The notes below the pieces were generated by a model, which saw nothing but the letters and a program-made list of their open reading frames with translations, made no database searches and had not been told where the DNA came from. Positions 1-27,337 of a DNA stretch of 40,618 nucleotides are shown one piece after another. The translations under genes were made by a program, and so were the position numbers. The first letter of the stretch is position 1, and each line of letters opens with the position of its first letter. This DNA comes from a virus: positions 1-40,618 of the IMG/VR virus record IMGVR_UViG_3300025151_000100; one strand, 5' to 3'.

Positions 1-221
1 TTTATTATGCCGAGCAGATAATCCCAGCCATACAACAAATAAAAGAATACCACAAGTAATTCTTTTTGTTGAGCGATATGTATACATTCGTGATTTAATG
101 TGTCTTCTGACATCTCTTCCCTGCTGATAATAAATGGGAACAGGGTGATAGCAACAATATCTACCACTATCGAGATTGATTTAAGAAACTTGGGTGCAAT
201 TAGTAATATAGGTATTTTCAT
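1..221 (-). CDS. Partial small membrane protein with HExxH motif (putative zincin-like)
   Basis: The first 73 codons are present and the gene runs off the window at base 1. The ATG overlaps the stop of the upstream 445-aa gene as ATGA, which fixes the start. Residues about 5-33 are strongly hydrophobic (likely a membrane segment). Then comes LNHECIHIAQQKELL, in which HECIH (residues 44-48) fits the HExxH zinc-binding consensus, followed by a second hydrophobic stretch (about 55-73). I recall short uncharacterised proteins in phages and Bacteroidetes with an 'NHExIHxxQQxELL' core between hydrophobic segments, and this looks like that type. Metalloprotease activity is not shown: the third zinc ligand would lie downstream or may be absent. 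The Q-Q after the motif differs from typical peptidases. The reading frame is secure; the function is an inference from the motif only. Confidence 0.72.
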   Translation of the reverse strand, partial: MKIPILLIAPKFLKSISIVVDIVAITLFPFIISREEMSEDTLNHECIHIAQQKELLVVFFYLLYGWDYLLGII

Positions 222-1555
222 ATGTCCATCTTCAATTTAAATGTGTAATCTTGCTCTTCTTCTTTTAAAACCGGATCAGCAAGTGTTGCGATTCCAATTA
301 GGTTCTTCATATTATCATATATGCCGACTCTTGAGATGTATACTTGACGTTTAAATGGGGCGTCAAAACTTGCAAAGCTTGATGACACTGTGTTCTTTAT
401 TCTTAAGACAGGGTTTTCTTCATAAACCTGAGAGCCTGTTCTAAGTAGCTTACTCTGATTAAACGCAACATATGTCGGATTATTCGAGTGATTAACCTGA
501 CCCCGGTGCGCATGAGCAAACATGGTTTGAACTTGTGTCTCTGTTGTTCCGTTAAAGACTATCTCAAAAGATGCCGATGCAAACCTAACATTGTTAACTG
601 TATGTGACGTGATTCCATCGTTGGCGCCGGCACCAAAGTATATCCATTTTGACGTGACGAGTCCGCCGGCGGTAGTTCCATCTACCAAGGGCAATAACTG
701 ATCGTTAATATCCCATGAGCCTGTCAACAAAATCAGACCTTCATTATACAAAACAACGCCTGCAACTTTTCCGTTATCGCTGGCACTTCCAGATACTTGG
801 ATAAGCTCTCCATTCTCTTTTGTGTCTCTAACCTCCGCTTTCAGGGCGCCTGATATATAATACCTCAGCGAAACAGTGCCTTCCTTCATTTTGTTTCCGT
901 AGAAGATAGATGGAATGTCAATTAGGTTGGTTGGCTGATTAGCCTTGTCCCAACCAAGCGAAGATGATACAACATAATGCTGACTCATGTATCCATATTC
1001 ATTGAGCCTATTTTTCAAAGCATAGAACTGACGATACTTGGGGGCGCCTAAAATAGTCTCTACGGTATTGGTTTCTCGATTGAGTACCACTGCTGCCCTA
1101 GCGGGATCGAAGTTATCGTCATATAGCGGCTCTCTTGCTCCGGGAAGTGGCGACATGAACACTCTAGTAATCGAAGCGGTCAAAGGATAGTTCGCCTGAA
1201 TCACATCGCCAAATTGAAATTCGTTGTTAAAGGACAGCTTGCCGGCTGAGCGGAATGATGCACGTGCAGAATCCTTTGTTATGTATGGAGATATAGGTGG
1301 ATTAAAGCCGGTGGTGGTTACTGATTCATCAGCAGCAATCTGCACCCCTCCGTCTCTATCTATATTCTGCTCATATAAACTAACACCCCCCGAAGTGCTG
1401 GAGGTGATATTCAGAATATTGTCTGAAAACGCACCAGACTGGTGAGGCGTATTATTGTAGTACACCTTGGTACTGTAGATATTAAAACGGACTTGTGGAT
1501 ATGCCCGCATTGTGTTCAGCACAATATCGTTTGGGCCAAACTTACGGAAAGACAT
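218..1555 (-). CDS. Virion structural protein, 445 aa, paralogue of the preceding 368-aa protein
   Basis: Beta-rich, Ser/Thr/Asn-rich protein with no signal peptide or membrane segment, as expected for a tail or baseplate component. The N-terminal 150 residues include FGDVIQANYPLTASI, a pattern I associate with marine phage structural proteins. The C-terminal half parallels the 368-aa gene directly upstream in the same order: a KEGTVSL segment, a GVVLYNEGLILLTGS segment, NNPTYV near residue 358, and VGIYDNMKNLIGIATLADP starting exactly 36 residues from the end. The start lies only two bases after the previous stop, so the two genes are translationally linked. A His-rich bit (AHAHRGQVNH) precedes NPTYV. 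No catalytic motif is seen. Likely an outer-baseplate or fibre-attachment subunit; the exact role is unknown. Confidence 0.85.
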   Translation of the reverse strand: MSFRKFGPNDIVLNTMRAYPQVRFNIYSTKVYYNNTPHQSGAFSDNILNITSSTSGGVSLYEQNIDRDGGVQIAADESVTTTGFNPPISPYITKDSARASFRSAGKLSFNNEFQFGDVIQANYPLTASITRVFMSPLPGAREPLYDDNFDPARAAVVLNRETNTVETILGAPKYRQFYALKNRLNEYGYMSQHYVVSSSLGWDKANQPTNLIDIPSIFYGNKMKEGTVSLRYYISGALKAEVRDTKENGELIQVSGSASDNGKVAGVVLYNEGLILLTGSWDINDQLLPLVDGTTAGGLVTSKWIYFGAGANDGITSHTVNNVRFASASFEIVFNGTTETQVQTMFAHAHRGQVNHSNNPTYVAFNQSKLLRTGSQVYEENPVLRIKNTVSSSFASFDAPFKRQVYISRVGIYDNMKNLIGIATLADPVLKEEEQDYTFKLKMDI

Positions 1556-1557
1556 TT

Positions 1558-2664
1558 TTAGTAGTCCAGTCTTACCCTAATCGTCAACTCATTTTGCGGT
1601 GTCTTCTTAAGCGGCTCAGACAATTTTGCAACCGCGAGAAGCTCGTTACGGGCGTTGTACAGTCCCACAGTCGTTGCATATGCTACTGGTTCGTCCGAAG
1701 CCACGCTCTTAACCTGTATCTTACTTTGAGAGACATACGTGGGGTTTGCGCTGTAGTTGAACTTGTTTACCGGCAAGCGACAGAAGTAGATTGTAGAGTT
1801 AATTTCTGTGGAGTTGTTAAAGGTAAGGTTTGTAATTCTTTCTCTGAGAGCATCCGCGGAGCTTGAGATTGATCCTGTGGCGATGGATGCCGCACATCCG
1901 AGCGCGGGACCGATAGACGTTGTGAATGCGGTAGCTGCGCCACTAGCAAACTGATTGAATCCAGAGGAGTTAGATAAGTCAAAGACCGAAGATGTAATAA
2001 CGGCGATACCAGCTTGGTAGAACACTACACCGTATGCACCATTATTTGTGGCGTCCGTCGAGCCAGTCGAAGCTACGCCGGCGTTCGTTGCGAACAGGAC
2101 ACCGTAGTCACCACCCATGGTGTTGACGGTTCCGTCGCCATTGGTTGAGGCACTAACGTCTTGCAGTGTAACAGTCTCTGAGTGTCTGTTACCCCATGGA
2201 CCGATTCCTAACTCAAGTGAGAAGGTACCCTTCTTAATTTGATCTTTGGTTATCAAACGAGAGAACGAAACAACCATCACCTCTTTCATTGAACCAGTGT
2301 TATCAAGCTTTAAATCTTTCTCGAACAGGCGGACCTGATTGTTAGATCCTGTATATCCCAGCAAAACTTGAGAAAACTGATTGTACATGTTAATCTTCTT
2401 GCTGTTTTGAGTATTTGTTGAAGCTGATAACTCTGATGACTCGTCATATCCTACCGTAATGTCCAAGATATGGTTCGCCGAGGAACTCAAGTATGGGTAG
2501 TCATATACACTCTGGAACATGCCATGTGTGTAATTTTTGATGTTATCGTTGTTATATGTGCCACTATTGATGATCGTGCCTGTGAGCGGGATCACCTCGT
2601 GCAGTATTGTTTTTGTTGTTGTTACGTCTGTGTTAACATTTAAAGGTTCGTAAGAAACAGGCAT
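1558..2664 (-). CDS. Virion structural protein, 368 aa, paralogue of the following 445-aa protein
   Basis: The N-terminal region contains GMFQSVYDYPYLSSSANHI and DITVGYDESS, a conserved-looking motif followed by a beta-rich body with many Ser, Thr, Gly and Asn residues. The second half carries IKKGTFSLELGIGPWG, GVVFYQAGIAVITSS, ANPTYVSQSKI (near residue 305) and VGLYNARNELLAVAKLSEP. These match segments of the downstream 445-aa protein in order, and the last begins 36 residues from the C-terminus in both. Tandem duplication is the simplest explanation. The ATG at 2664 is preceded by GGAG about 8 bases upstream. No membrane segment or enzymatic motif. Probably a tail or baseplate subunit. Confidence 0.85.
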   Translation of the reverse strand: MPVSYEPLNVNTDVTTTKTILHEVIPLTGTIINSGTYNNDNIKNYTHGMFQSVYDYPYLSSSANHILDITVGYDESSELSASTNTQNSKKINMYNQFSQVLLGYTGSNNQVRLFEKDLKLDNTGSMKEVMVVSFSRLITKDQIKKGTFSLELGIGPWGNRHSETVTLQDVSASTNGDGTVNTMGGDYGVLFATNAGVASTGSTDATNNGAYGVVFYQAGIAVITSSVFDLSNSSGFNQFASGAATAFTTSIGPALGCAASIATGSISSSADALRERITNLTFNNSTEINSTIYFCRLPVNKFNYSANPTYVSQSKIQVKSVASDEPVAYATTVGLYNARNELLAVAKLSEPLKKTPQNELTIRVRLDY

Positions 2665-2678: not shown

Positions 2679-3704
2679 TTATGTCTGTGCTAGCTTGATA
2701 ATTCTGATTGGCAACTGTAGATTAGCGTTGGACGCTAGTCCCATGACGTAGACAGTTGTGTCAATAAAGTCATAAAGTGTGCCGTCTCCAAACAAGTCGT
2801 TGGAAGTTGTTCCAAACTTGCTGTAATCTGTTTGTGTGATATCGCCTCTGATTCGGAAATTCAATGCAGTGAAGGCGCCGCGGGGACCAGTTATGGCAGA
2901 GTATTGACCACTATCGTCAACATTAACGCCAGTTGTCCCAACGTTTGAGTATACTCTTGTGACGCCTCCTCCAACGACTGTTTCCAAGTAGTTGGCTAAA
3001 GTAGCAGATCTTTTGGCGTTTTTTCCGACTGCTAACTTGACTTCAATGGTTGCACCCTGTTGGGTTCCATTAGAAAACATAGCGCCGGCGCCTGCGCCCA
3101 TCGCAGTTTGAATAAATCTACCATCGTATCGAACGAGGAATCCGCTATCCATAAGTCCAACCGACGCAATGTACGTGGCTTGATTGACGGAAGAAGCAGC
3201 GATATCGGTGCTATTAATTCCAGTCTCGACCAAGATAAACCTTCCGCTGGTGTCCGCATCAATAAGGATGTTCGCGCCGGGCACGTTAGATGTGTCGGTC
3301 ATAACTTTAGAAGTAGGAACGCCGTTAGCATTGGTCTTACTATTATCAGCCAAAAAGAAAACATTTTTGGATACTGATTTGGATGCGATTCTAGGGCTGA
3401 ACGTTTTTTCGTTTACTTCGGCAGAGGGAATATAGAGCAGGTCTTGTCTCGCATACGAAACTAAGCCGTAATTAATATTAGCGTTCGGCTGAGTGAACGC
3501 TTCTAATATGGGAGTTTGTAAAATTTCTAAATCATAATATGCAGAACCCGATGGATGATTTTTCTGGTAAAGACCGTAATCAATCTCATCATCTCCAACA
3601 CTGAACTTTGTTATTTTAAAATTGCCTCTGGCCATTCTCTTTCTGCCAACATCGGTCAATACGGCGTCTAAAATAATGTCGCCTGAGTTATCTAAAAATC
3701 CCAT
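2679..3704 (-). CDS. Virion structural protein, 341 aa, with the shared 'DxxLTxxG' N-terminal domain
   Basis: The first 46 residues contain D13, L16-T17, G20, G27, K30, T32, D38-D39, I41 and Y43. The same residues stand at exactly the same positions in the 357-aa protein at 13573-14646, so I regard this as a common docking or folding domain of about 45 residues. The rest is beta-rich with several Gly/Ala/Ser patches (MGAGAGAMFSNG, TVVGGGVTRVYSNVG) and no recognisable enzyme motif. An AGAGAGGAAA-type ribosome binding site lies just before the ATG, in a 35-base gap after the 1045-aa gene. Context (baseplate module, same strand) supports a structural role; the specific role is unknown. Confidence 0.85.
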   Translation of the reverse strand: MGFLDNSGDIILDAVLTDVGRKRMARGNFKITKFSVGDDEIDYGLYQKNHPSGSAYYDLEILQTPILEAFTQPNANINYGLVSYARQDLLYIPSAEVNEKTFSPRIASKSVSKNVFFLADNSKTNANGVPTSKVMTDTSNVPGANILIDADTSGRFILVETGINSTDIAASSVNQATYIASVGLMDSGFLVRYDGRFIQTAMGAGAGAMFSNGTQQGATIEVKLAVGKNAKRSATLANYLETVVGGGVTRVYSNVGTTGVNVDDSGQYSAITGPRGAFTALNFRIRGDITQTDYSKFGTTSNDLFGDGTLYDFIDTTVYVMGLASNANLQLPIRIIKLAQT

Positions 3705-3739: not shown

Positions 3740-6700
3740 TTAATCTTCGTCATCTTCTTTTAATTTTATATCTGGGTCATTATAAGTAATGTTTAAATCG
3801 ATTTTTTTGCCAGTTTTCTTGGATGTTAGACGAATCTTGAATATTTTACCCCAGATGTCATCGTTTGTTCCGCCAATGTCAACGCTGTTATATTGACTGC
3901 GGGCATCTTTGCTGAAATCTGCTGCGGAAGTGTTGATCTTAAGTTGATCTAAGTGTGGACTAAGCTGGAACATATTCTTGAACGACTTGGATGGATTGAT
4001 AAATTCTTCTTCTAACAGATCTTGCTCAAACAGCACATCGAAAATTCCGTATTTATATCCTCCGTCATTGACAAGCTCAGCTTCTATGATTGTGTCCACA
4101 TGTCCTGACATATTATTATCATTAACCGCCCTAAACAAGTAGTAGTATTTGTGATTTGATTTTATAATATCATTAAAGACAGCAGTTGTATATGAAAAAT
4201 CCATACCATCAATTGATAAGTCTACTATTTTAGGTATCTCATTTTCAAAATCTCTAAAGCTCTTGGGTTTATTGTCTAGCCTAAACACTTCTATGCGCTT
4301 TTGAGGAGAAGCTGTTCCCTCGTGGATCCTAGTGTGATCCAATATGTCATTTGCATGCAGGTAGTCTCTCTCGTTCTTTATATCATTCTCAGTGATTGGT
4401 CGAGGATACGGCTTGGGGCTAGTATTTTCATAGTTTATATCAAAGGTAATCATGTTGTCATTATTTAACGTATACCCCGGTACCACATCCAAAGAATTTG
4501 GAGGATGGTCCAACACCTTGAAAGTCTTATCCATAATCGGAACTTCAATTAGTCTCAAGGATGGCTGCATAGTTACTTGGAAATTTGCCACATATGGCGG
4601 AAGCACGTTGCCATCATCATCGCTAAATGCAGACACTTGAATTCTTTGGGCGTCTGTCGCTTTTTCAGAAAGCTCGTCTCGAACTTCTGCATCGACTTTC
4701 GCAAGATAATCATTCGATCTTAAGAAGTCGTCTTGATATTCATTTGTGTAGGGATTATAATATTCAACACAATATCCCAGAGGTGCTGTTGGTGGACCAC
4801 CATCGAGACCCGAGGCGACCTCTACAGGTCCGGTGTAGCCATCTTCCCTAACTTGCCCAATGATTCTGCTAAGTTGCAAATTGGAATATTTGTATTTATA
4901 CCCTTTCACAAGATAATAAGCAAACACCTTGTAGTGGTAATCCTTTTGATATTTTACTTGTGAATCGATTAAATCATAGCCGTCCATCAGTTGCGAATTA
5001 AAAATCCAGAAATTCTGTATGTCTGCTAGTTGTGAGCTATCTTCCAGTGTTGGTCCTTGTTTTTGCACTCGGTATGCGATCACCTCATTATATTTTGGCT
5101 GAGGAGTTAGCGAGTTGAAATCCATTTTCTGGTACACCTCTGGAGTAAACCCGACCTCGTTTTCTTTCAGGGTTCCTGCCGAACTAGGCGATGTTGGAAG
5201 AGTACGCTCTTGTGAGTTCAACAAAGATGCTATATCGTAGATGGAGGTGCTAGCGAAACTTGTTCCAAACTGAGCTATGACTTCAGAGATCAAATGACTC
5301 AGGTTTCTGCTGTTCAGGGAGCGATACAGAGCCCTTGTGTCAGTGGCTGCCATTCTACTTAGATTCTGAAGACCTACTACTTGGAAGTCTTCGTGCTCCA
5401 TGATTACGTTATCATATGCATACAACAGCATTCTCAAGAAGTCGACAGTGCGATACTGTACCGATCTGTTTGTTGTGGTGGTAACATTTTTTGTTTTACC
5501 CACAGAGCCGCTTACATACTTCGAAGTTTTTTGAAATTGCATCTCTGTTATTGGCACTGTAGCGCCTGCTTGCCCTAAAAAGACTTCCTTTATTGTTCTT
5601 ATTAATATGGTGTCACTGTTTGTCTTTTCTATCATATTCCTATAAAGTATGTTGTCAGCATATTTTCTCCAACTTACTTTTGCATAATATGGCCACGCCA
5701 ACTGTGTCTCGCTGAGAGACGTGTCGTTGTCGAGCAATTCGTATGCAGCATCAGCGTCAAACAAGATATTTCTACAGCTTTCGTTATGTCTTTGCCGAAC
5801 TGCAAATTCTAATGAACTATACCTAGAGGGTATCATTTGATCTATGTATTTGGTGCTCGGTATCAGCCACGAAGGTACATTTAAGGTAATGTGACCTTCT
5901 TGTTCAATTCTCTCTGGCGGGATAATAAGCGCATTCATTTCTTTAAAAGTCAATCCACCGCCAAAGCTGTAATATTGGTAGTTGTAATCTTCGATCTGCT
6001 TTTTCGCTCTTAACTCTCGTTGTGCCACTTTTGCTGTCGCGACTGTGTTATAGGCACTTCCTATGGTGTACACGGTGTAATAATTTGGAATGTCTCTTTC
6101 GGATGGCAAGTCAGCAACAAAATTCTGATAGATTGGAAAATATCGATTATAGTCGTATGACAACTCTATTGTTTCAGTGGCTGTTGTGTAATTTTCTAAA
6201 TAATTTTCTTGTATTTTTTCATATGGCAGGGATATTACAGTAAAGTGATCATCATAAGCGCCTGTATTGAACATTGGCTTTAAGTTGTGATTTAGATATC
6301 TTCCACCAGTAAACAAAACTTGCCAGTATTTGCTCGCTGTAGTCACATCACTTAAGTGCTCAGACCTGCTTGGATCTCCCTCAACGCGAACAATAAAATT
6401 AGTAGATGGAATCACGGTGTCGCGAGCAGCAGCATATCGATAATCATCTCCAAAACCACGCTCAAGAGAATTACCTCCAAATTGAACCATCATGTCACCA
6501 ACATAGGAACCAATTTGTTCTACATCTGGATGTGGATTATACGCTGGATTAAACGGAACAAACCTAGGTGGGACGTTAAGAATTCCATGGGTGTTAACTT
6601 CATTAACAAAATATCCACCTAAAGAATTGCGGATCCTATCGCTTGAGCCAGACAATAAATTTAAATCCACTAAAGAGCATTGTTGTATTGTAGGATCAAC

Positions 6701-6877
6701 AGGGGCTGCCGCTTCAGAAGCCGGTGGCGCCATAGGCGACTCAATCGGAATTTCTTCTTCGGCTATATCAGACACAGCCGCAGCCCTTTCAGCCATGGCT
6801 TTCTCCCTCATTTCTTTTAACATTGTCTTTTTCTTGAAGGCTAAAGATTTAGCGCGTGCTTCTTTATCCATTGACAT
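3740..6877 (-). CDS. Large virion structural protein, 1045 aa, with FN3-like segments
   Basis: The start codon shares its A with the stop of the upstream gene (TAATG), giving tight translational coupling. Residues 1-45 are Lys/Glu/Ala/Met-rich and probably alpha-helical or coiled coil. The middle is unrecognised. Two stretches look like fibronectin type III or related beta-sandwich repeats: about 590-665 (VIAYRVQKQG ... YHYKVFAYYL) and about 860-930 (RIEVFRLDN ... KYYYLFRAVNDNNMSG). In both, a substrate-like strand is followed by a 'Y.Y.F.A' strand. The C-terminus is Lys/Asp/Glu-rich (LKEDDED). No signal peptide or membrane helix. FN3-like folds are common in phage tail proteins and would fit an exposed adhesion or scaffold part of the baseplate. 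The FN3 assignment is by eye and tentative; the structural role is inferred from context. Confidence 0.82.
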   Translation of the reverse strand: MSMDKEARAKSLAFKKKTMLKEMREKAMAERAAAVSDIAEEEIPIESPMAPPASEAAAPVDPTIQQCSLVDLNLLSGSSDRIRNSLGGYFVNEVNTHGILNVPPRFVPFNPAYNPHPDVEQIGSYVGDMMVQFGGNSLERGFGDDYRYAAARDTVIPSTNFIVRVEGDPSRSEHLSDVTTASKYWQVLFTGGRYLNHNLKPMFNTGAYDDHFTVISLPYEKIQENYLENYTTATETIELSYDYNRYFPIYQNFVADLPSERDIPNYYTVYTIGSAYNTVATAKVAQRELRAKKQIEDYNYQYYSFGGGLTFKEMNALIIPPERIEQEGHITLNVPSWLIPSTKYIDQMIPSRYSSLEFAVRQRHNESCRNILFDADAAYELLDNDTSLSETQLAWPYYAKVSWRKYADNILYRNMIEKTNSDTILIRTIKEVFLGQAGATVPITEMQFQKTSKYVSGSVGKTKNVTTTTNRSVQYRTVDFLRMLLYAYDNVIMEHEDFQVVGLQNLSRMAATDTRALYRSLNSRNLSHLISEVIAQFGTSFASTSIYDIASLLNSQERTLPTSPSSAGTLKENEVGFTPEVYQKMDFNSLTPQPKYNEVIAYRVQKQGPTLEDSSQLADIQNFWIFNSQLMDGYDLIDSQVKYQKDYHYKVFAYYLVKGYKYKYSNLQLSRIIGQVREDGYTGPVEVASGLDGGPPTAPLGYCVEYYNPYTNEYQDDFLRSNDYLAKVDAEVRDELSEKATDAQRIQVSAFSDDDGNVLPPYVANFQVTMQPSLRLIEVPIMDKTFKVLDHPPNSLDVVPGYTLNNDNMITFDINYENTSPKPYPRPITENDIKNERDYLHANDILDHTRIHEGTASPQKRIEVFRLDNKPKSFRDFENEIPKIVDLSIDGMDFSYTTAVFNDIIKSNHKYYYLFRAVNDNNMSGHVDTIIEAELVNDGGYKYGIFDVLFEQDLLEEEFINPSKSFKNMFQLSPHLDQLKINTSAADFSKDARSQYNSVDIGGTNDDIWGKIFKIRLTSKKTGKKIDLNITYNDPDIKLKEDDED

Positions 6878-7939: not shown

Positions 7940-8515
7940 CTAGTAGTATTTGTTTTTACCATGATAATCTCTTTTTTGATTTATTACCGTCATTTGTGAA
8001 AGTATGTAACTTAAGTCTGGAACTTTTTTTATCTTTCCGGTTCCTATTACTTTTGGCATTGTATATGCCGAAGGGGCACGTACTGAATCTTCAAGCTGAT
8101 AGAATGGATCATTGTCATAAGGAAATTTGTCTTGAACACGAATTTCTTTATTCACTGTGTTTTTAAAGTCGTCGATGTCCATTATGTTTACGTTTGAAAG
8201 AGAAGGCTTATCGGAGTTGTCCTGTAGCAGAGAAAAATTTTCTGTATGCTGGGATACTGTAATGTTCATCTTTGCAAGAGTCTGTTCCGCAATTACGTTT
8301 CTCCTATTCTCAATAAAACACTTAGGTCCCCTCATTTGTCGAATGTTTGTGTAAGGTCCAGTGCTAGTTTCCATCGATAGTCTGGCAGATTCTATGTTAT
8401 AAAGAAGCGGTTCATCCTTTCCATTTACTATTTTATCCATAAAAACTTTAGTTGATTTTCTACGGTTTTGGATTGGCGTTGTTTTAAATTTTACAAGTGG
8501 TGCTTTTAGTAACAT
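7940..8515 (-). CDS. Hypothetical protein of the structural module, 191 aa
   Basis: Basic at both ends (KFKTTPIQNRRKSTK near the N-terminus, KRDYHGKNKYY at the C-terminus) with a central acidic part. No signal peptide, membrane segment or domain I recognise. It is the only short gene between two very large structural genes and is read in the same direction. The ATG is preceded by AAAAGGAAAA and, just upstream, CTAAATA, a possible late promoter. It could be a small baseplate connector or an assembly chaperone, but nothing in the sequence decides this. Confidence 0.78.
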   Translation of the reverse strand: MLLKAPLVKFKTTPIQNRRKSTKVFMDKIVNGKDEPLLYNIESARLSMETSTGPYTNIRQMRGPKCFIENRRNVIAEQTLAKMNITVSQHTENFSLLQDNSDKPSLSNVNIMDIDDFKNTVNKEIRVQDKFPYDNDPFYQLEDSVRAPSAYTMPKVIGTGKIKKVPDLSYILSQMTVINQKRDYHGKNKYY

Positions 8516-17600: not shown

Positions 17601-20600
17601 CTTTGTAGAAAGTATCTTGCGAACTGCTCAGGTCGGTTCCGGGAATCTCCAAGTAATCAAATACCTGTCCGTCTACTCCAACCTTGGCATACTTGCTAAT
17701 TTGTTCGGAGATTCTAAACTCCGGAACAACTGCGTACCCCTTAGCAATTGTCTTGATGTCGTACCTGAAGTCGTCGTAGTCATTATACCATGGTTCTGAC
17801 GGAGCAGGCACAAATCCAACAACACCATTCGAGGTAGTGAGGTATCCTGCCATTCTTCCAGCTTCCCATGCAGCCTCTCCTGAACCAGTCATCAATGAAG
17901 CAGTAATCGGAAGAGAGCCGATTCCTGAGCCTGTTTGAGTAAGCACAAAGTTATTGGCTTCGATACCAGCAACATCTCGGCTAGTTGCCTGAGAAATACC
18001 AACTGGGCTGTGTGCTGAAAGTGGCGATTGAAGCATGTGCTTGCGGGCATACAAGCCTCCATTTCTAATCACTAACTGTATCTGCGAAGTTTCGGATGCA
18101 ACACCAAATTGGAATGGTACTAATACAATGCTTGTGCTTGTACTAGATGTTGCGGGAACACCGAAATGATATGTGGAATACGTATTCTGTAATTCACCGG
18201 CGCTGTTCGAGTGTATCAAGCTTGAGCCGTAATAAAGCTGCATTCCATCAGTGTGCCACAACAAGCCACCTATTGAGGCTGGATCAGATGAAGCAGTTGA
18301 AGTTATTATCGGAGGAGCAGTTCTATCTAGGAAGTCTAGCGGCGCGTCGAGCGGCCAAATACTTTGAGTAATAGATCTGTTTACAACATCGAAATCAACA
18401 TAGGATAAGGCACCAACTGAGTTTGGCACGCCCGCTCCACCACTAACACGTGTTTCTTGGTCGTTTCTCCAGAATTTGTTATCATACCCAACACGTGTCA
18501 TTGATGAGGAAATAAACTCTCTTCGTGTTGATGGGAACAGGTTCTCGGAGTATAGAATCCAGTTAAGGTTTACATTTCGATCCAATCGCATGGCGACAAG
18601 CTGTTCAAATGGAGTTACCTCGCTATCAAAGTTAAGATTTGCGAAAACATCTAGCTCTTGTTCGTTGAACCCAATCATTTCATTGTTGTAAGTTGTCTTA
18701 AGTGTTACATTGTCGGGCTGCTCGACTAAACCGCCAAGAGATGTTGAGAATGCGTTTGCGTAATCCATGTTTATGTACGCTGGTCTACCCTTCAGAGACA
18801 GAGGCGGAAGATCAAAGTTTCTTTGTACATTGCCCATGTACATTGTGGAGAGTTTGTTTGTTCTCTTCTCGTTAGTAAGGATTGGGTGATCGCCTTGGCG
18901 CATGCGAACCCAGTTAGCGCCAGCATATTGATTTTGGCGCTTGTACATTAGGTTATTAAAAGCTGGAGCATTAGCAAGTGAATCGTTACCAACAATGCCG
19001 ATTAAATCAGTATTCACATACTGACTGTTGGTTTCGGTAGAATCAGATAAGGGTATCTCATTTCTGTATCCCATTGTGTTGGTTGCGGCTACAATTGGCT
19101 CTTCAATGTTTAAATTTAGTCTACTTACCTGTGGAATAAATTTATTAGTGACAGCAGGCGATGCTGTTGTCACGCTCGGGAATGCCCTAGTGCTAGAGGG
19201 CACAGAACTACCAACCTCACTAGCGCTAACAAAGTTCAGAGGCTCGATATAGGTTGAGCCGCTTCGGAACAAGAAGTCACGAGGAGTGAATCCACAGTGC
19301 CACCATGATGCTGTCGATTGCAGCGATGCCGTAATCCAAGCGTACTGTCTTGAGTCGCGAGGAATCTGGTGCTGGATGAAGAAGTTGTCAAACAGAGGGC
19401 GAGCTTCAAAAGTACAATCTTCTCTTAAACCAATGAAGGCTGCTACACAACCTTTTAGCGGATCAGGGAATACTGTTGACATTGGTGCACCGGCGGAATC
19501 GCCGGAACCACTGCTAAAGCAGAAGTCAGAGGTTGTAAAATTCTCACCCATCTTGCAAACGGGATACATGTTGTTGAGAGGCTCACCGGAGTGATCGAAA
19601 ATAATGTTATTACCTGAGATGGGCTGTCCGGGGTTAGAGCCATAACGAATCGCGTCGTCGTCAGAGATACCTGCTGGTGACGGGTCACCTAATGGATACC
19701 AAGCATGCAGCTTGGTTGGAGCAACGGAATACGCGACGGACGCTGTTAAATCACACGGCACACCACCGTTATATATTTCAGAGATCTCAGAAGCTGCAAG
19801 TGAACGGGTCCATATGGAGCACTGATCCAAGGCACCTGAAAAGTTTGTAGTACCTACTGCGGCATCGCTCGACTGCCCGCCGAAAGTATATACCTGATCT
19901 CCTGTCTTACGGGGCTGTGCTGTTGCTGTTGCCGTGTCGAAGCCCTTATACGCATAAGGCGAATCTATTTGTGCATCGTAGGATCGGATAGTGCCAGAAG
20001 ATGCCATACTGACTACCGAGGCTGTCATATGAACACCATCAATATATATTCTAACCAAATCGTGTGAATCTTGAGTGCTATTCAAGGCTCCTTCGGTGCC
20101 TTGGAAAGTTACTGCATAATGATGCCATTGTCCATCTTGTAGCTGATTGGCACCAGTGACTGTGTAATCAGATTGAAGGGCACTACCTCCAAAACCGGTT
20201 GTAGTGCTGCGATATCGAGTTCTAACAACAAATTGATTATTTGAAACCTTGTCAATACGAATAAGAGGTGAACTAGTGGCGGCCGCTTTTCCAACGGTCC
20301 AGAAGGTCATAGTTGTCAATTGAGAACTTGGAACTGCCCAAAATGAAACAGTGGCACCATTTTTATTACCAAGAGTTCTGAATGATGCGGTAATAAAATT
20401 ACTACTACCAGTATCGGCACTAGCCAGCACTGGACCTCTTGTTGACCTATCGAGGAAGTACAGCGATCGATCATTGTTTAAAGCTGCACCTGATGCAACG
20501 GGTATCAAATCGCACGAGATAGCTCTGGTTTCACAGACGTTATTCCTATGTATTTTATGAAATCCGGGTAACTGATTGTAAGATGCACCGGGGTTTGTAA

Positions 20601-23600
20601 CGTGTAGCGAATCTCTTCCAAACCTAGCTGTGTGTCTGGCGTAGTGCGAGCGAAGACCGTAATCTTTGCCATGGATGTCGAATACACGAATACCAGCAGT
20701 ACCACTACCTGTCGGCTCTGAAATGCTACCAGATGGTCCCTGAGACGTCTTAATGACGGTTGGGTATCGCTTACCTAATGTGTTGTAAACTGAGAATGTG
20801 TTTGACCTGAAATCTCTATATCCCGTACCGTCTGTTACTGGTCCTCCGACGGTGCCGAATCTAGTTGAAATTATTGAGTTGTTTGTTGTCCCGGTCAAGT
20901 AGCCGACATTATATTCATCTATAAAGTTAAAGTGACTCTCATCAGTTCGATGGATATCTAAAATAGTCCTTGTTTGGGTTGAACTTGTTGTGTTGTTTTG
21001 AAAAGCTTGCGCTGGTAACGCAGGTTGATTTTCAATAAACTGTCTGGGGTTTGCGTACGCATCAAACGAGTGGACAATCTCATAATTATGTTCGAAGTTA
21101 CCAAGAATTGTTGAACCAGTCCGCATGCGGATGTTCTTGATATTGACAGGACGCTTAGCAACAAAATCGCGATAATAGACTGCTTTTTGAGAAGCGGTCA
21201 TTGGGTACGCAGGCTTATCAGTTGCATTTGCTTCTGGCCACGGATAATCAGCAGAGACAAGACCAATAGCGCCCGAGAGGCGAGGTCCAGCGTCACATAC
21301 ACCGCGATATCCAAGGAGCAGCTTCCAAGCCTCTGGGCGGCTTCTGTAGTTATCAAAGCCTGAGTAAAGCAATCCCTTGTGCGATGCACTGACGTTGAGT
21401 GGCACGTGTCGAGATTGATGACCACCAACTGCATATTCAGTGAATGGACCTTGCATTGGCTTCTCTAAGTCGGTACCATATACATCATTGTGCAAGTTAG
21501 TTATTGTTACACTAGAAGAAAGGCTGCTTGAAATCCACTCATCTATACCGCCTCGGATAGTCCCGCTCATAATGTTGAATGGGAAAGCAAAAGTGTTCTT
21601 GGTGTTGGTGTAGTTGGTAAAGTCACCGTCGTAATCTCTACCCTGTATGACGCCTATAATTCTGTGTCGTTTCTTGCCAACGTTACCATCCTGATTCCAT
21701 TGTTCCAAATCTTCAATTTCTAATAAGTCTTTATCATGAGCCAACAAAACGTTTGTGGGAACAAATATCCCACCATGAGTGTTTATCGGACCTGCAGGAT
21801 ATGTTGATGCGTATGCGAAGGCAAAGCTCTTGTTTGGTGGGAAGTTAACACCACCCTTGATCGTCGCTCTTCTTGAATTAGTAATTCCATCTACTGCAAA
21901 CTCGCCAATCTCAACAACGCCATTGAACTGTGTTGATAACAATCTGTTTCGACGATATATGGTGCCGCCCACAGTAGTAAGATTAATTGCAGAACCAGAG
22001 AACGCAGGGCGACTCCATTTTATGTTTCTGATTTGACGACGTTTTGCGTCGATGGTTGCATCGCCAGAACTAATCTCATAAGAACCAATACCTTCGGCGC
22101 CGGGTTGGGCGCGTTTTTTCCAATAATCTTTATGCAATCTAGTCGGGCGTGGAGAAGATGGAACGCCACCAAACAAATCGACTTCATATTTTTTCGATTT
22201 TGCTGCAATACCCAACGCAGATGCTTCTGGTTCAGGTGCCTTAAACTCTAGTGTCGGGAACTGAGTTTTATATTTTGGTCTCTCTAATACATGACTCTCA
22301 ATAGTGTTGTAGGTGTCATTTGCAAACTCTGCAGAGGCTGGCACCACTTGTTGGATAATGGTCGAGAGGGCGTCATCAAACCACTTATAGTATTCGGTGA
22401 ACGCCTCAACGGTTCTTAAGTCTCCAAACTTTTCAAAATAAATATTTCTGAGCGTTTCCAAGCCCTTGTACTCGGCTCGATAACGGTTGACGGGATCACC
22501 AATTACATTGTTGAAGTCAATTGCCCCAGCAAAGTAATCAAGAATCTCCTCCGATATTGCACCGTACAGACTCTTCTCTAAAGTGTGAATATATTTTGGT
22601 ACCTCGTCAAACAATCCATACAATTCATCGTCAGCAGTGAGAATGTGAACCATATCATCACTGGTGACAACTTCCGGATCAATAAACTTGAACTCATTTG
22701 TTAATTCATTTCTAACAACGTAGTCGGCACTAGTGGCGAATTTCGCTCCCTTACCCGGATATGGACGCCCGGCAATCTCGCCGGCCCAGCCAAAGTTGTC
22801 TCTCACGAATGTGGAACCAGAACTCAAATCTGTAGAGAAGAAGTTTCCTGAGCTATCTGAACCAGTTATCGTTCCAAAGTGCCAGTTCAAGGCTAAAGAA
22901 TTCAGATTGTAGATGTCATGAGTGGTAGCCGCGCTATCAAACGGTGAGATGTTTTGATGTGAGCCAGAGATACCAGCGTTCTCACGATCAACAGTGTGCT
23001 GCTTTAAGCTCAAATTGTCGACATACTGAGTCCAATACTTCAGGCTGTTGAACTCAACGTCAGAAGGATTTAAGTTGGAGCCGGTTATGTTTGTGTTTTG
23101 AGCACCAACGTACAACCGCTTCCACGAGCGAATCATGTTTTTACCAGTTGCCGCGGCAATTGAAGCGCTGACCTCGAACTGATTTCGAATTGTTCCCAGA
23201 ACATTGTTATAACCCCTGAAGACAACCTCATAGGCATAATCTTCTGAGCCTGACATAAAGCCGGGATTTTCTTTTGTGGGTCTCAAGCCAACTGACAGGT
23301 TCCAGTTTTCAGCATTGTAAACGCCTATGTAAGTGCTACTGGTCAGTTCGCCAAACGGGTGCGGGTCAAATGATGATGTTAGCAAGAAACGAACATTCTT
23401 AGAGCTTTCTTGATCTCTGACAGCATATACTTGGAAGTTAGCAACATCTTGCGCACCAGTAAGCGATGTAGTACCGCCGCCATATCCAGCACCCGAGCCC
23501 GTAAAGACAGTTTGCATACCAAACAGCGATGAAGATAAGAAATATCTGTCCATAGAATTCTTTATGGAGAAGAATCTAGGGAAGTGTACGCTGGCTTCAA

Positions 23601-25752
23601 CCGTCAATCCGTAGGGATCTTGAGCACCAGCCACACCATCGGGGAATGCGCCCGGTAGCGCAGGCTCACCGGCGCCGGTTATGTACGATAAAGAATCTGA
23701 TAAAGATGGGTCTTCGTCATTATACATAACAGCATGAAGTGCTGATGCGGTGTTAAAATTAAGTCTCTTTTTCTTCTTGAGTGTTTGTTTTAAGTTTGTG
23801 TCCAATTCATAGGTTTGATTATCTGAGTAAGTTTTAAAATATAAAAGATTGTCATCAACATTGAAGCACCTTAGAACATTTCTAACAGATGCCGCAGTAC
23901 CTTTTGATTTAAAAATGTGGGTTAAGCTGTTGTAAAGGTTTTGATAAATGAGGTTCTTCGTATCATTTAGCTCATTTTCGTATAACTCAGAGTCGCTTCT
24001 GTCCTTAAACTTATCCAGTACATCGGCATCTATCATTATCTCTGGAGTCATAAGACCAAGAGACTGCGGTAGGTGTTGCGCAAACGGCAGTGGCTTATGT
24101 GATGCACTTGTATATTGTTCGTGCCTAAAAGACGGGAGCGCTGTTATTTGTAAGTACAACTTGTCGAAGTAGGCACCTACAATGTGCGCCATTTTCTCTA
24201 GATCACTCTCACCAGTAGCGTTGTCCTTACTCTCAGCTTCTTCAACTACCCATGATGGTATAAGATTGATAAACTGGGAACTGTTTTGCCCATCATGATA
24301 GAGACCCTTTTCTTCCAACTCGCTCTTAAGAGATACAACAGAAGGGTGTGTTTTGTATATAATTGGGTCTTCGTACTCACGTATAGCTGCCGATGCGGAT
24401 AAAATTGCCGAGCCTGTATTTCTTGAGACAGTGGAGTATCCGGTCCATGCACCGTTACAAACTCTTCCACCGTAATCTAATACAACGCTGTCAATGCTCG
24501 AAGTACCTGTGATACCCTCGTTGAACTTATAGTACACCCCTAATGTTGTGTTGGAGATGTCTGTGTTTACACCTCCCCTAATTTGGGTGAACCAATTTCT
24601 TCCAATCTGTTGCCCATCGCGTGCAACTTTCCAGAATCTAAACTCGTCTAGCGAACCACTTAACTTACCTGCTCCCGCATATGCTGTGGGCAGTACACCG
24701 CCCTCTGCTGCGCCAGAAGGTGCTGTTAGGAGCGCACCGATTCTTGCCTGCATGTTTTTCGGGGACAACTCACCTATGTTTGTTGAGGCGTAGATGTTGG
24801 TGTCATCCAAGACGCCGTTTACATATAATTTAGCATAGAAATCAGAACCTGAGTTCTGGAACACAAAGGCGTAGTGATTCCAGTCAGAAAGACTGGATGA
24901 CAAAGATGTAGAGCCGATTGACGATGTACTTATCTGCAGACATGACGCACTCAGTGTTCCTGACTGCACTGTAATCAAGAACGGAGATGTTGCGCCACCG
25001 GGATCAACATTTGCTTCAATTCTAAGACGTCCGTAGTCCTGCGCGGTGGAGGAACTTACAACCTCGTTCCACATGTCAAAAAATACTTGACGATCCGTCT
25101 GGGTGGGCGTGATATCAGAGCCTGTAACGGCCCAGAACTCAACTGTAACCCCTGTATCAAAGTTAGATCTCAAGTTTGAGAGTCGAGTGCCGCTACCATA
25201 ATCAGATGGCAAGCCTGCGTTCACATATAAATTATCATCGTATACATTGTTAAATTGGAACTTACTGCTGTTCTCGTCGGGCAAAATCTTGCTAAGTGGT
25301 TGCGCCTTGCTTGTTGCAACTCCCGGACCACCTTTTAGTGTGATGTATTCCGGAGTCGATGGCACACCATACCCAACACTATGGTATGTCAGCTTGCTGG
25401 AAACTGCAACACTTGTTGGAGAAAGAGTGGCATATCCTGTTGTTCGGGGGTATCTCTTGTCAAAGATATATTTTTCAATATCTAAAGACTTGTTGTAAAA
25501 CTCGGTAATCTCTGCATCAGAACCATCGTAGGGATAGAAATCAGGAATTCTATCTATCGCGCTCTTGTAGTAAAGATTTGCTGATCCAAACTTTGCGAAA
25601 GAAAACGGATTACTGTAATCTATCTGTGGAACAAAGGCATCTTTTCTGGCTTTTTGAGCCTTGAGATTTCTTGATGATTCTATGTCTTCTGTTAATTCTT
25701 TTTCGTTTTTATCTGGTATAAAGTTTCTACCAAACAGGTCCTTAATACTCAT
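14692..25752 (-). CDS. Giant virion protein, 3686 aa, with two LamG/ConA-like domains (putative baseplate/adhesin)
   Basis: One open frame of 11 kb overlapping the upstream gene by 11 bases. Two regions show the LamG (concanavalin A-like jellyroll) pattern. The first, residues about 195-415, has VTVEFWAV, WNHYAFVF, LYVNGVLDD and GSLDEFRFWKVAR. The second, about 1800-2015, has ATVSFWAV, WHHYAVTF, IYIDGVHM, GALDQCSIWTRSL, SEIYNGG and LHAWYPLGD. LamG folds usually bind glycans or proteins, so receptor contact is plausible. Long Ser/Thr/Gly-rich stretches lie between and after them. A C-terminal region of about 400 residues contains WPYDYISIVETITFDADVKY, then a Lys-rich helix and a Gly-rich end (GGGAGGSGIVGY). 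No transmembrane segment. It follows gp6 and the 531-aa gene, where T4 has genes 7-10, so it may combine wedge and adhesin roles; that is inference. Confidence 0.88.
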   Translation of the reverse strand: MSIKDLFGRNFIPDKNEKELTEDIESSRNLKAQKARKDAFVPQIDYSNPFSFAKFGSANLYYKSAIDRIPDFYPYDGSDAEITEFYNKSLDIEKYIFDKRYPRTTGYATLSPTSVAVSSKLTYHSVGYGVPSTPEYITLKGGPGVATSKAQPLSKILPDENSSKFQFNNVYDDNLYVNAGLPSDYGSGTRLSNLRSNFDTGVTVEFWAVTGSDITPTQTDRQVFFDMWNEVVSSSTAQDYGRLRIEANVDPGGATSPFLITVQSGTLSASCLQISTSSIGSTSLSSSLSDWNHYAFVFQNSGSDFYAKLYVNGVLDDTNIYASTNIGELSPKNMQARIGALLTAPSGAAEGGVLPTAYAGAGKLSGSLDEFRFWKVARDGQQIGRNWFTQIRGGVNTDISNTTLGVYYKFNEGITGTSSIDSVVLDYGGRVCNGAWTGYSTVSRNTGSAILSASAAIREYEDPIIYKTHPSVVSLKSELEEKGLYHDGQNSSQFINLIPSWVVEEAESKDNATGESDLEKMAHIVGAYFDKLYLQITALPSFRHEQYTSASHKPLPFAQHLPQSLGLMTPEIMIDADVLDKFKDRSDSELYENELNDTKNLIYQNLYNSLTHIFKSKGTAASVRNVLRCFNVDDNLLYFKTYSDNQTYELDTNLKQTLKKKKRLNFNTASALHAVMYNDEDPSLSDSLSYITGAGEPALPGAFPDGVAGAQDPYGLTVEASVHFPRFFSIKNSMDRYFLSSSLFGMQTVFTGSGAGYGGGTTSLTGAQDVANFQVYAVRDQESSKNVRFLLTSSFDPHPFGELTSSTYIGVYNAENWNLSVGLRPTKENPGFMSGSEDYAYEVVFRGYNNVLGTIRNQFEVSASIAAATGKNMIRSWKRLYVGAQNTNITGSNLNPSDVEFNSLKYWTQYVDNLSLKQHTVDRENAGISGSHQNISPFDSAATTHDIYNLNSLALNWHFGTITGSDSSGNFFSTDLSSGSTFVRDNFGWAGEIAGRPYPGKGAKFATSADYVVRNELTNEFKFIDPEVVTSDDMVHILTADDELYGLFDEVPKYIHTLEKSLYGAISEEILDYFAGAIDFNNVIGDPVNRYRAEYKGLETLRNIYFEKFGDLRTVEAFTEYYKWFDDALSTIIQQVVPASAEFANDTYNTIESHVLERPKYKTQFPTLEFKAPEPEASALGIAAKSKKYEVDLFGGVPSSPRPTRLHKDYWKKRAQPGAEGIGSYEISSGDATIDAKRRQIRNIKWSRPAFSGSAINLTTVGGTIYRRNRLLSTQFNGVVEIGEFAVDGITNSRRATIKGGVNFPPNKSFAFAYASTYPAGPINTHGGIFVPTNVLLAHDKDLLEIEDLEQWNQDGNVGKKRHRIIGVIQGRDYDGDFTNYTNTKNTFAFPFNIMSGTIRGGIDEWISSSLSSSVTITNLHNDVYGTDLEKPMQGPFTEYAVGGHQSRHVPLNVSASHKGLLYSGFDNYRSRPEAWKLLLGYRGVCDAGPRLSGAIGLVSADYPWPEANATDKPAYPMTASQKAVYYRDFVAKRPVNIKNIRMRTGSTILGNFEHNYEIVHSFDAYANPRQFIENQPALPAQAFQNNTTSSTQTRTILDIHRTDESHFNFIDEYNVGYLTGTTNNSIISTRFGTVGGPVTDGTGYRDFRSNTFSVYNTLGKRYPTVIKTSQGPSGSISEPTGSGTAGIRVFDIHGKDYGLRSHYARHTARFGRDSLHVTNPGASYNQLPGFHKIHRNNVCETRAISCDLIPVASGAALNNDRSLYFLDRSTRGPVLASADTGSSNFITASFRTLGNKNGATVSFWAVPSSQLTTMTFWTVGKAAATSSPLIRIDKVSNNQFVVRTRYRSTTTGFGGSALQSDYTVTGANQLQDGQWHHYAVTFQGTEGALNSTQDSHDLVRIYIDGVHMTASVVSMASSGTIRSYDAQIDSPYAYKGFDTATATAQPRKTGDQVYTFGGQSSDAAVGTTNFSGALDQCSIWTRSLAASEISEIYNGGVPCDLTASVAYSVAPTKLHAWYPLGDPSPAGISDDDAIRYGSNPGQPISGNNIIFDHSGEPLNNMYPVCKMGENFTTSDFCFSSGSGDSAGAPMSTVFPDPLKGCVAAFIGLREDCTFEARPLFDNFFIQHQIPRDSRQYAWITASLQSTASWWHCGFTPRDFLFRSGSTYIEPLNFVSASEVGSSVPSSTRAFPSVTTASPAVTNKFIPQVSRLNLNIEEPIVAATNTMGYRNEIPLSDSTETNSQYVNTDLIGIVGNDSLANAPAFNNLMYKRQNQYAGANWVRMRQGDHPILTNEKRTNKLSTMYMGNVQRNFDLPPLSLKGRPAYINMDYANAFSTSLGGLVEQPDNVTLKTTYNNEMIGFNEQELDVFANLNFDSEVTPFEQLVAMRLDRNVNLNWILYSENLFPSTRREFISSSMTRVGYDNKFWRNDQETRVSGGAGVPNSVGALSYVDFDVVNRSITQSIWPLDAPLDFLDRTAPPIITSTASSDPASIGGLLWHTDGMQLYYGSSLIHSNSAGELQNTYSTYHFGVPATSSTSTSIVLVPFQFGVASETSQIQLVIRNGGLYARKHMLQSPLSAHSPVGISQATSRDVAGIEANNFVLTQTGSGIGSLPITASLMTGSGEAAWEAGRMAGYLTTSNGVVGFVPAPSEPWYNDYDDFRYDIKTIAKGYAVVPEFRISEQISKYAKVGVDGQVFDYLEIPGTDLSSSQDTFYKDYSNSDFMKNFVDVKKMSDLKGSEIRLTCKATIKFNPYKGFYPADRTLDLVSQFSRSYAESLTFTSLDSTGTDITAVTSTALMQYSYARPVMQPLFAPGILYNSIKSGMAVDYPVVTNGYKMFAQEVTGTAASGSNPYVVTGSPTNYMIAAANPTTPGGATGGAISGSSVGSAEYISGAFWDFRVPFEAIMEPMRYINGVRFPDMEVDPRTRLPILGGATASIASRAGSRLYEGISSNFFAEVGKFFLKDGEYTKLRSEGVDFGKKQFRAGEVYGARLRMRTSYEGSRTYENEKGSDGTSYFYSSNGARAFFKNFTSASTPPVSKITGVSGSYELPQDPELSTTFKQNFIMYSRPTAFGPAVSGRQDITVFGSASYTEPFRQRGHEFNLSASSFGVKDSLNGYNWSFTPPYYYGESWVDFIFRPSSSVDYDLARILKETQVIQRRYDAGSPMHGHKKIDGFYRRTLHRDQMVFTTENTASVGAHFPSFGRNFTPYASENINDNAMQVDSCVNLFGIELEAKEKYDKFGNLISQDNESTGQRWVIQPKFETPMMNFADTGVRPLERHSVLGEVPTDPTKISVPAHFGSGSLAQGMWHQFGILPDSDDKGIFMEIGEIPREWLQNHYDVVTGSSVYNNYTPAEGPLLYKNMKSFADLCGFNENNSTVRLGDVANQQVIKEAVVAIPYIETGLVEGETQPAAQSGQSRKQFINIPQKRFEAALKNLEGSIEGDSLDTAGASIRRLVDQMQDYVLPPQFDFLNNKKVSPIVMYMFEFEYTLDKDDLSYIWQNLAPRDYKHAAFEQESTAHTLMNTELLTEYNLLSNPNLRWMVFKVKQRGQTMYADMITRQVDQPNNQKEFSRNTSNDYPLKFNWPYDYISIVETITFDADVKYDRDKEKSFDAATNKRNKQNQILDKKKRKKMNDLHLDELQEKNRIPNKGKFPPMGKMGKLKKGGGGDQGGGAGGSGIVGY

Positions 25753-27337
25753 TATCCGCCACCCTGAACTTGAATAATTGATCTTGTTCTAACCAAGAAG
25801 AAAGTTCATCGTCATAAAATGCAAATTTGAGCCCATACTCGTAGCCGGGCTCAAGTAGTTTCATACTTAAATCAAAGTAATTTCCTGATACATCGTAAGA
25901 TAAGCCGGTTGCGTTGTCGCTTCCTGTAAAGTACGGTATCACTTCTAAAGAGTCTAAAATCCTAACCACGCGGTACGAAGCACTGACAATTGGAACATGC
26001 TCTGGTGTAGTTTTTGCTTTTGTATAGATGGTTGGATTCCAATATTTATTTCTTACGTAAAGATTAAATCTAGCTTTTTCTGTTGGACTGTATCGCCTCT
26101 GAAGATTTGTTACGTTGATGAAATAGACGGGCTCTCTTGTGTCTGTGGTGGCTCCAAAATCTTTCGTGTTGATTGAGCCAGTAAATAAGAAAGTATTATT
26201 TGACCCGAGGGCGCCGCCGCTTCCTGTGTACCATACATCGTAAAGAGTCTTAATTTCAGATGTGGCGCCAGTTACGGCAATAGAGCAGGAGTAAATTCCT
26301 GTAGAGACGTAGCCACCCGTAATCGCATATTGGCCATCATATAGTTTTAACTTATGTCCATCGGGCTCTGAGTTGTCATCGGAGCCAGAGAATAGACTGA
26401 CCATAATTGAACCAGTCGTACCTATCGAGGGGATGTTTGCCAGTCTTCCGCGGACGTAGTTGTAAAGATAAAGTGTGTTCAAGTTGTCTGGACCGGGAGC
26501 AAGGGAGCTACTAAAGTAAAAGTCTCCTCTGTCATCACGAGTAACAGAGTCCCAGCGAGCCTCAATTACCGGTCTCTTGTAGAAATATTGTGTGCCTCTT
26601 CCGAAGAACCTCTTTGTATAATAAGAGTCTTGAGCACCACCAGTATTGTTAATGATGCTGCCTGTGTAAAGCGGGGTGATGACCGTAGAGTTTGACGCTG
26701 AATAATATGCCTCAAATGAGGAAGAAAGAAAGATTCCAACGCCGTAATTTGTTTTTGTACCGGCGATCCAGTGTTCTACCAATGGTGATATATCTATTTC
26801 TAAATTCTCTAATCCGCTAGAGAACGTTTGTTTGAAACGAGGATCAGTAGCACCAGTTAAATATGAACCACCAACGGCTCCTACAGAAGAAGTCCAGTTT
26901 GTGGTTTTAGTTGCCTTAATCCAGTTTGAGCCGATGCCGCCCTTTGTTAAGTCTTTGTAGTTTTCTAAATCCAATCCGAGTCCTTCCTCCCACTCCTGCG
27001 AGATTGGGAGAATCTCTAGTGTGAAGTCTCTGGGGACTGTCTTTGAGGTCTCTGCATTGAAAAGCTTGAGATAAAATGAAACAGAACCGCTACCCGGTAT
27101 TTTGTTTGCACTGCGATCAGCACCTATGGAGCTAATCGGAAACTGAATAAGTATTCTAGAAAGTTCTTGTGAACCACTGGCTGCTGAGGATGTTGCTTGC
27201 TGCCTTCCGTAAATGGAGTACGTCTCTATTATGTCTGCCTGACCGCAGTTTGCGCCAGTGCCGCGGGTGGTCATGCTTGGCTGATACGCATTTACAATTG
27301 TGTTATCTATACTAGCAGTGTATCTTACGAGAGCCAT
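25742..27337 (-). CDS. DNRLRE-like structural protein, 531 aa, following gp6
   Basis: The start shares its A with the stop of gene 6 (TAATG). Residues about 30-220 resemble the DNRLRE/beta-jellyroll pattern: SRILIQFPISSI, SVSFYLKLFNA, ISQEWEEGLGLD, GSNWIKA and IDISPLVEHWIAGTKTNYGVGIFL. In that family such a set marks a beta-sandwich found on surface-exposed and phage tail proteins. The middle is Gly/Ser/Thr-rich with SGSDDN-type loops. The C-terminal part (VYFINVTNLQRRYSPTEKA ... EPGYEYGLKFAFYDD) may be another beta-sandwich. Placement directly after gp6 corresponds to T4 gene 7, but I see no clear resemblance to gp7. Likely an outer wedge or adhesion protein. Confidence 0.83.
   Translation of the reverse strand: MALVRYTASIDNTIVNAYQPSMTTRGTGANCGQADIIETYSIYGRQQATSSAASGSQELSRILIQFPISSIGADRSANKIPGSGSVSFYLKLFNAETSKTVPRDFTLEILPISQEWEEGLGLDLENYKDLTKGGIGSNWIKATKTTNWTSSVGAVGGSYLTGATDPRFKQTFSSGLENLEIDISPLVEHWIAGTKTNYGVGIFLSSSFEAYYSASNSTVITPLYTGSIINNTGGAQDSYYTKRFFGRGTQYFYKRPVIEARWDSVTRDDRGDFYFSSSLAPGPDNLNTLYLYNYVRGRLANIPSIGTTGSIMVSLFSGSDDNSEPDGHKLKLYDGQYAITGGYVSTGIYSCSIAVTGATSEIKTLYDVWYTGSGGALGSNNTFLFTGSINTKDFGATTDTREPVYFINVTNLQRRYSPTEKARFNLYVRNKYWNPTIYTKAKTTPEHVPIVSASYRVVRILDSLEVIPYFTGSDNATGLSYDVSGNYFDLSMKLLEPGYEYGLKFAFYDDELSSWLEQDQLFKFRVADNEY

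Follow-up and report, generated by a model that had tools for sequence, protein, structure and literature searches.

Baseplates of related contractile tails

In T4 and XM1, each baseplate wedge combines two chains of the gp6 type with one of the gp7 type, and gp25 provides the connection to the sheath. The (gp6)2-gp7 wedge is common to XM1, whose gp7 ortholog has 242 residues (PMC10457771). In AlgoCIS, the gp7-like part binds the tail fibers and is a hotspot of re-engineering (PMC8894135), and in eCIS the fiber genes follow homologs of Tail_P2_I, J and gp25 in about 90% of loci (PMC12923769).

The locus described here, in which proteins are named by their length in residues, shares with the W-J-I-H operon of P2 (NC_001895) the order of a gp25-like gene, a gp6/J-like gene, an I-like wedge gene and collar/fiber genes, as well as a short I-like motif (in p3686) and weak gpH-like traces (in p341, p368, and p445). 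Unlike P2, in which gpI has 176 aa against 3,686 for p3686, it carries an inserted gene, p531, and several extra putative rim genes; the position of p531 between gp6 and the wedge-slot protein also sets it apart from T4. A giant outer-baseplate block at the corresponding place is already known from the cyanophage S-PM2 (NC_006820, 26866-66563), where the genes run gp25, gp6, a giant gp7-slot protein of 3,048 aa with a K-G-T motif, 175 aa, gp8, and then 2,747, 67, 1,251, 168, and 3,338 aa. With its further giants of 2,747, 1,251, and 3,338 aa, this block behind gp25-gp6 resembles ours and is larger, but it includes a recognizable gp8, and no sequence homology to our locus was detected for its remaining proteins. 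A literature search found no paper on phage Mel-JY01, a relative introduced below, or on Far-T4 baseplates.

A conserved gene block behind gp25 and gp6

The window, that is, the whole stretch of DNA analyzed, is an IMG/VR record of 40,618 bases. Ten minus-strand ORFs at 218-27337 together encode 8,987 residues, with gp25 and gp6 directly upstream (Table 1). Their lengths (531, 3686, 357, 1674, 191, 349, 1045, 341, 368, and 445 aa) and places are exactly those given by the first-pass annotation, and neighboring ORFs abut or overlap by a few bases. We read the block as an outer baseplate, the part that contacts the host, on the contractile-tail plan gp25 (W)-gp6 (J)-gp7-slot wedge (I)-collar/fiber (H), with p3686 as the wedge protein, and give this reading a probability of about 0.75.

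Table 1. Positions of the anchor genes, block genes and p3686 segments in the window, with the basis for each assignment.
Feature	Position	Strand	Basis
gp25, sheath-initiator wedge protein, 122 aa	29154..29522	-	Pfam GPW_gp25 9.2e-13; hhalign to P2 gpW profile 96.7%
gp6, wedge protein, 600 aa	27337..29139	-	phrog_6 4e-21 (PHROG baseplate wedge); hhalign to T4 gp6 97.6%
p531, putatively jelly-roll-like, between gp6 and gp7-slot protein	25742..27337	-	conserved throughout; homologous to Mel-JY01 386 aa, LR756508 420 aa, immuto 369 aa
p3686, giant protein in putative gp7/gpI slot, with LamG domains	14692..25752	-	Tail_P2_I matches confined to p3686 or counterparts; core homology
LamG domain 1 of p3686, residues about 202-383	24604..25149	-	Pfam Laminin_G_3 above cut-off
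gpI-like K-G-T helix motif of p3686, residues 614-657	23782..23913	-	Tail_P2_I positions 72-118, E 0.003, sub-cut-off
Predicted LamG/pentraxin-like sandwich inside wedge core, residues 660-1025	22678..23775	-	AF2 blocks mostly pLDDT 70-94; VIA-align Z about 11-16 to pentraxin/LamG domains
LamG domain 3 of p3686, residues about 1782-1991	19780..20409	-	Pfam Laminin_G_3 above cut-off
p357, N-terminal domain common with p341	13573..14646	-	hhalign p341-p357 89.8%; p341 and p357 profiles match same RM378 protein
p1674, length variable (about 730-1754 aa), C-terminal part conserved	8561..13585	-	syntenic in clade; no PDB or Pfam match
p191, small syntenic protein	7940..8515	-	synteny
p349, fast-evolving slot, Gly-rich tail	6877..7926	-	slot about 180-820 aa in relatives
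p1045, large conserved protein	3740..6877	-	weak Fn3 hint: best relevant PDB profile match Fn3 E 0.67
p341, adaptor-like, weak P2 gpH N-terminal similarity	2679..3704	-	hhalign 23% to gpH; homologs in immuto, Mel-JY01, LR756508, RM378 (E 5.5e-13)
p368, outer protein, C-terminus resembling gpH collar core	1558..2664	-	hhalign 60.3% to gpH; RM378 homolog 1e-21; AF2 pLDDT 76
p445, paralog of p368	218..1555	-	hhalign p368-p445 99%; gpH 24%

A scan of viral contigs with gp6 gave 239 relatives, of which 80 were kept; 13 contigs were stitched and 12 of these extend past p1674. Where a kept contig is long enough, its genes run from gp25 through gp6 and p531 into the beginning of p3686, and the order gp25-gp6-p531-p3686-p357-p1674-p191-p349-p1045-p341-p368-p445 is maintained in 12/12 of the stitched IMG/VR contigs that pass p1674, as far as each goes. 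Duplication of p341 occurs in three stitched contigs, and the p349 slot is split in one. Scanning with p368 added 69 loci, most with the same gene order; a more distant sub-clade among them mostly lacks p191 and p349 as separate ORFs. Conserved order together with gp25/gp6, which the first-pass annotation had named as support for its reading, is thus seen in dozens of marine contigs, a recurrence that chance does not explain. As p445 is followed in relatives by RuvC-like, DnaG-like and SbcCD-like genes, and then by terminase and a T4-type portal, the boundary on the p445 side is real as well. The T4 late-promoter word TATAAATA occurs five times against 2.1 expected, with as many in 4 of 100 shuffles, and was set aside.

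Placement within the T4 superfamily

By gp6, the named relatives are the immuto phages (Flavobacterium), Mel-JY01 (Microcystis) and LR756508 (uncultured), at 28-31% identity; by p368, they also include the Rhodothermus phage RM378, the reference of the Far-T4 group. In a portal tree, eight clade members group with RM378, immuto and Mel-JY01 and split from T4, 44RR, K571, S-PM2, and HTVC008M with support 100/100; this tree covers eight relatives of the window, which has no portal gene of its own, and the RM378 branch in it is very long. Judged by the portals of its relatives, we place the window, as a marine phage from a T4-like branch that has received little study, on the RM378/Far-T4 side of the T4 superfamily, the group-defining capsid gene being absent from the window.

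Immuto, Mel-JY01 and LR756508 share with the window the run gp25, gp6, a p531-like gene and a large gp7-slot protein, and further on p341-like genes and p368-like paralogs. In contrast to the window, they have a gp7-slot protein of just 1,265-1,400 aa, and either no p1674-p191-p349-p1045 stretch or an unrelated one. RM378 has a p341 homolog (205 aa) adjoining a p368/p445 homolog (416 aa), whereas a search of 26.6 kb turned up no other gene of the block.

p3686, a probable wedge protein of the gp7/gpI type

Downstream of gp25/gp6, and separated from them by p531 alone, p3686 occupies a position that is constant in the clade. In the equivalent slot, Mel-JY01 (1336 aa, 97.8%), immuto (1265 aa, 96.6%) and LR756508 (1400 aa, 95.5%) each have one large gene, to which residues 430-1200 of p3686 are homologous. 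When whole genomes were searched with Tail_P2_I (PF09684, the P2 gpI family), seven matched (G000, G005, G010, G012, G013, G018, and LR756508), each solely in p3686 or its counterpart; these are non-independent orthologs, so that their count overstates the evidence, although LR756508 is remote. The window's p3686 scores 12.2 bits (E 0.003), and only the G018 ortholog, with 20.9 bits, exceeds the Pfam cut-off of 20.6. The signal spans just about 25-50 residues, and hhalign of p3686 against gpI gives just 7.2% against a decoy maximum of 4.4%, aligned exactly on the K-G-T motif. The same motif is present in the gp7-position proteins of Mel-JY01, immuto, LR756508, HTVC008M, and S-PM2, as a comparison of P2 gpI (AYFIHCHKGTIGAIRRVVEPLGY), p3686 (LTHIFKSKGTAASVRNVLRCFNV), immuto (SYLLKTKGTERGLRALINCFGI), the 3,048 aa protein of S-PM2 (SDFYRAKGTDQSIKFIFNTL) and the 1,016 aa protein of the pelagiphage HTVC008M (ISLYKAKGTKAANEIFFRAL) illustrates. 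An AF2 monomer of residues 430-1200 (35 sequences) has a helical core of low confidence (pLDDT about 30-64), and profile searches of PDB sequences with the p3686 core gave no meaningful match.

Laminin_G_3 lies above the Pfam cut-off in 14/14 genomes (p3686 of the window and 13 orthologs). The predicted sandwich within the core is flanked by low-confidence helical parts in the AF2 model, and lectin-type domains thus seem both to interrupt the wedge core and to flank it; we infer that the LamG domains of p3686 bind glycans. Slot, motif and core homology support the view that p3686 is an ordinary wedge protein of the gp7/gpI slot beside gp6, which appears to have been enlarged by sugar-binding-type domains. 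That it is instead a tape-measure protein or a non-virion enzyme, neither wedge nor adhesin, we consider very improbable: its sheer length would suit the former, and LamG-type folds are known in enzymes too, but it follows gp25-gp6, carries the wedge motif and is rich in beta-type LamG content rather than in long helices.

Two paralogous pairs and the remaining genes

p341/p357 and p368/p445 form two paralogous pairs. The part common to p368 and p445 is the C-terminal domain, which is also found in five Mel-JY01 proteins of the corresponding block. The pairs were compared by hhalign with P2-like and T4-like family profiles, with the profiles reversed to serve as decoys (which reached at most 4.4%); gp6-gpJ, an established true pair and the positive control, gave 59.5%. 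Sub-cut-off matches to Phage_tail_fib (gpH, PF12571) occur in two genomes, at the C-terminus of the p445 of G021 and at the homologous C-terminus of a Mel-JY01 protein. A structure search with the p368 model (Foldseek/VIA) had phage tail proteins in its top rows, including a T4 gp6 domain, with a best Z of 5.2, below the significance guide of the tool, and is at most suggestive. Profile searches of PDB sequences with p341, p357, p368, and p445 gave no meaningful match. The hhalign values and the two Phage_tail_fib matches, though weak, support, but do not prove, a relationship of p341, p368, and p445 to P2 gpH.

In the p531 family, 11/40 members weakly match Disaggr_repeat (disaggregatase-type; best 6e-4), and p531 may be a jelly-roll. 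Profile searches of PDB sequences with p531, p1674, and p1045 gave no meaningful match, and a scan of viral contigs with p349 found no relative.

Search for T4 gp7-gp12 and gp53

The block shares with T4 gp7-gp12 the position after gp6, and presumably the role, but no profile similarity was found for any of them. Pfam and PHROG scans matched none of the ten proteins to gp7-gp12. As single-sequence T4 profiles were too insensitive (gp6-gp6 gave just 75%), we used profiles built from six phages together with decoys; with these, hhalign yielded no gp8-gp12 signal above decoy level in the block. The T4 gp7 profile (phrog_964) had no match in the block, which is weak evidence since this low-power profile misses S-PM2 and HTVC008M as well. 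The gp8 profiles (phrog_977/phrog_438) detect T4, 44RR, K571, S-PM2, and HTVC008M, with E of 1e-11 to 1e-168 for T4, S-PM2, and HTVC008M, yet they were silent in every relative tested.

Under one-to-one orthology with T4, the ten genes would be gp7 to gp12 (plus extras), true gp8-gp12 included, diverged beyond recognition. Position and strand fit such a history, gp6 and gp25 are true T4 relatives, and the gp7 profile fails even within the T4 superfamily; but the decoy-level results for gp8-gp12, the silence of a gp8 family that reaches S-PM2 and HTVC008M, and paralogous pairs that point to gpH-like parts instead make it an improbable account. The contractile-tail plan with p3686 as wedge protein explains the block better.

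For gp53, p349 of the window gave one sub-significant match. We do not believe this assignment, since six other genomes have their match in a LysM-like ORF of 101-115 aa that lies elsewhere. Given this short LysM-like gp53 relative, the inner wedge is probably complete.

Interpretation of the block

The first-pass annotation saw in these mostly unrecognized proteins, none resembling gp7-gp12, a distinct and very large adhesion module that replaces the T4 genes and may be an undescribed machine. The block is distinct, very large and conserved, and its LamG domains support adhesion. Scans of the single window proteins with Pfam and PHROG returned almost nothing, LamG in p3686 being the only feature recognized at once among the ten; LamG, the gpI motif and the weak gpH similarity are nevertheless recognizable. 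Similarly, deep profiles find no gp7-gp12, but p3686 carries the gpI/gp7-slot motif. As it has this wedge signature and occupies the slot, gp7 does not appear to be replaced, and the frame is the general W-J-I-H or gp25-gp6-gp7-fiber plan, with giant blocks behind gp25-gp6 on record in S-PM2; the idea of an undescribed machine is therefore overstated, if not wrong, and the block looks like an unusual form of a machine already known. A wholly distinct adhesion machine, in which p3686 and its neighbors have no counterpart in other baseplates, would agree with the lack of Pfam/PHROG matches for most of the ten and with p1674, p191, p349, and p1045 having no recognized relative outside the clade. 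It accounts poorly for the gpI motif, for the shared slot and homologous core in Mel-JY01, immuto, and LR756508, and for the p341/p368 pair in RM378, and we regard it as slightly less credible still than T4 orthology.

On the contractile-tail plan, the helical core of p3686 (about 470-660 and 1000-1180) would form a bundle with the two gp6 chains. The protein would also be decorated by LamG lectin-type domains, three or more of them, which would hang at the rim and allow the wedge to touch host surface glycans. p341/p357 and p368/p445 would act as collar/fiber-type adaptors at the periphery, and p531, p1674, p191, p349, and p1045 would make up the rest of the rim. Once attached to the host, the rim may then pull the wedges outward and, via gp6 and gp25, release the sheath. 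A bolder version, which we put forward tentatively and with the odds against it, is that the wedge protein now serves as a main receptor-binding protein in its own right: host glycans would be bound directly by its LamG domains, the rim would sense the host without separate short tail fibers, and p1674, p191, p349, and p1045 would form a clade-specific rim without counterpart in any solved contractile tail.

What is new here is the version of the block, which belongs to a clade on the Far-T4 side, has LamG domains in its putative wedge protein, shows no gp8 that could be detected, and includes clade-specific rim genes. If p3686 is the wedge protein, such a protein can grow about twentyfold (from 176 to 3,686 aa) with its slot fixed, and the K-G-T motif offers a way to spot the wedge protein of the gp7 slot even at lengths above 3,000 residues. 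The block is a candidate for filling the gap pointed to by Roux et al. in a common aquatic phage group.

Probable spike, sigma-like and large genes of the window

The M23 peptidase of the window is likely the tail spike or lysin, and the 334-aa protein encoded next to it may be the remainder of the spike. The 2,282-aa protein is kept across the marine clade; it has no PHROG or Pfam match, and a counterpart is absent from Microcystis phage Mel-JY01, Flavobacterium phage immuto and the uncultured phage LR756508. The 241-aa protein is kept in these named relatives and looks like a late sigma factor of the T4 gp55 type.

Coordinates of genes in the window and at loci of compared phages (L-numbers)
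Feature	Location	Remark
M23 peptidase	window 37446-38543	Pfam 1e-29
334-aa protein	window 36425-37429	next after M23 peptidase
2,282-aa protein	window 29567-36415	between spike/hub genes and gp25
241-aa protein	window 38832-39557	weak Sigma70 region 2 similarity
3,048-aa virion protein	L227:5073-14219	S-PM2
Phosphoesterase/ATPase protein	L096:807-3917	
Tubulin-like GTPase	L089:3164-4297	Pfam Tubulin 4.8e-8, above cut-off
ORFs listed with the L089 gene	L086:5015-6139; L092:6030-7166	375-379 aa

Features of the relatives

The giant virion protein of cyanophage S-PM2 carries a gpI-like K-G-T motif near residue 197, which makes it the probable gp7-slot protein of that phage. In a relative's genome (G020, L225/L226) and in LR756508 (L215/L216), T4-type portal matches are split inside frames of 1,204 and 1,387 aa, which suggests that the portal gene holds large in-frame insertions, possibly intein-like. 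Short LysM-like gp53 relatives (101-115 aa; L110-L114) lie far from the outer-baseplate block, and a 345-464 aa gene precedes such a relative in several genomes.

L096 and its equivalents encode one protein of 1,035-1,070 aa that combines a calcineurin-like phosphoesterase with an SMC-type ATPase, as though SbcD and SbcC had been fused. The best-known carriers of phage tubulins are nucleus-forming jumbo phages. In this T4-superfamily clade, a gene for a tubulin/FtsZ-family GTPase, recognised by a Pfam search that covered L089 only, follows the baseplate genes and the SbcCD-like genes on their downstream side.
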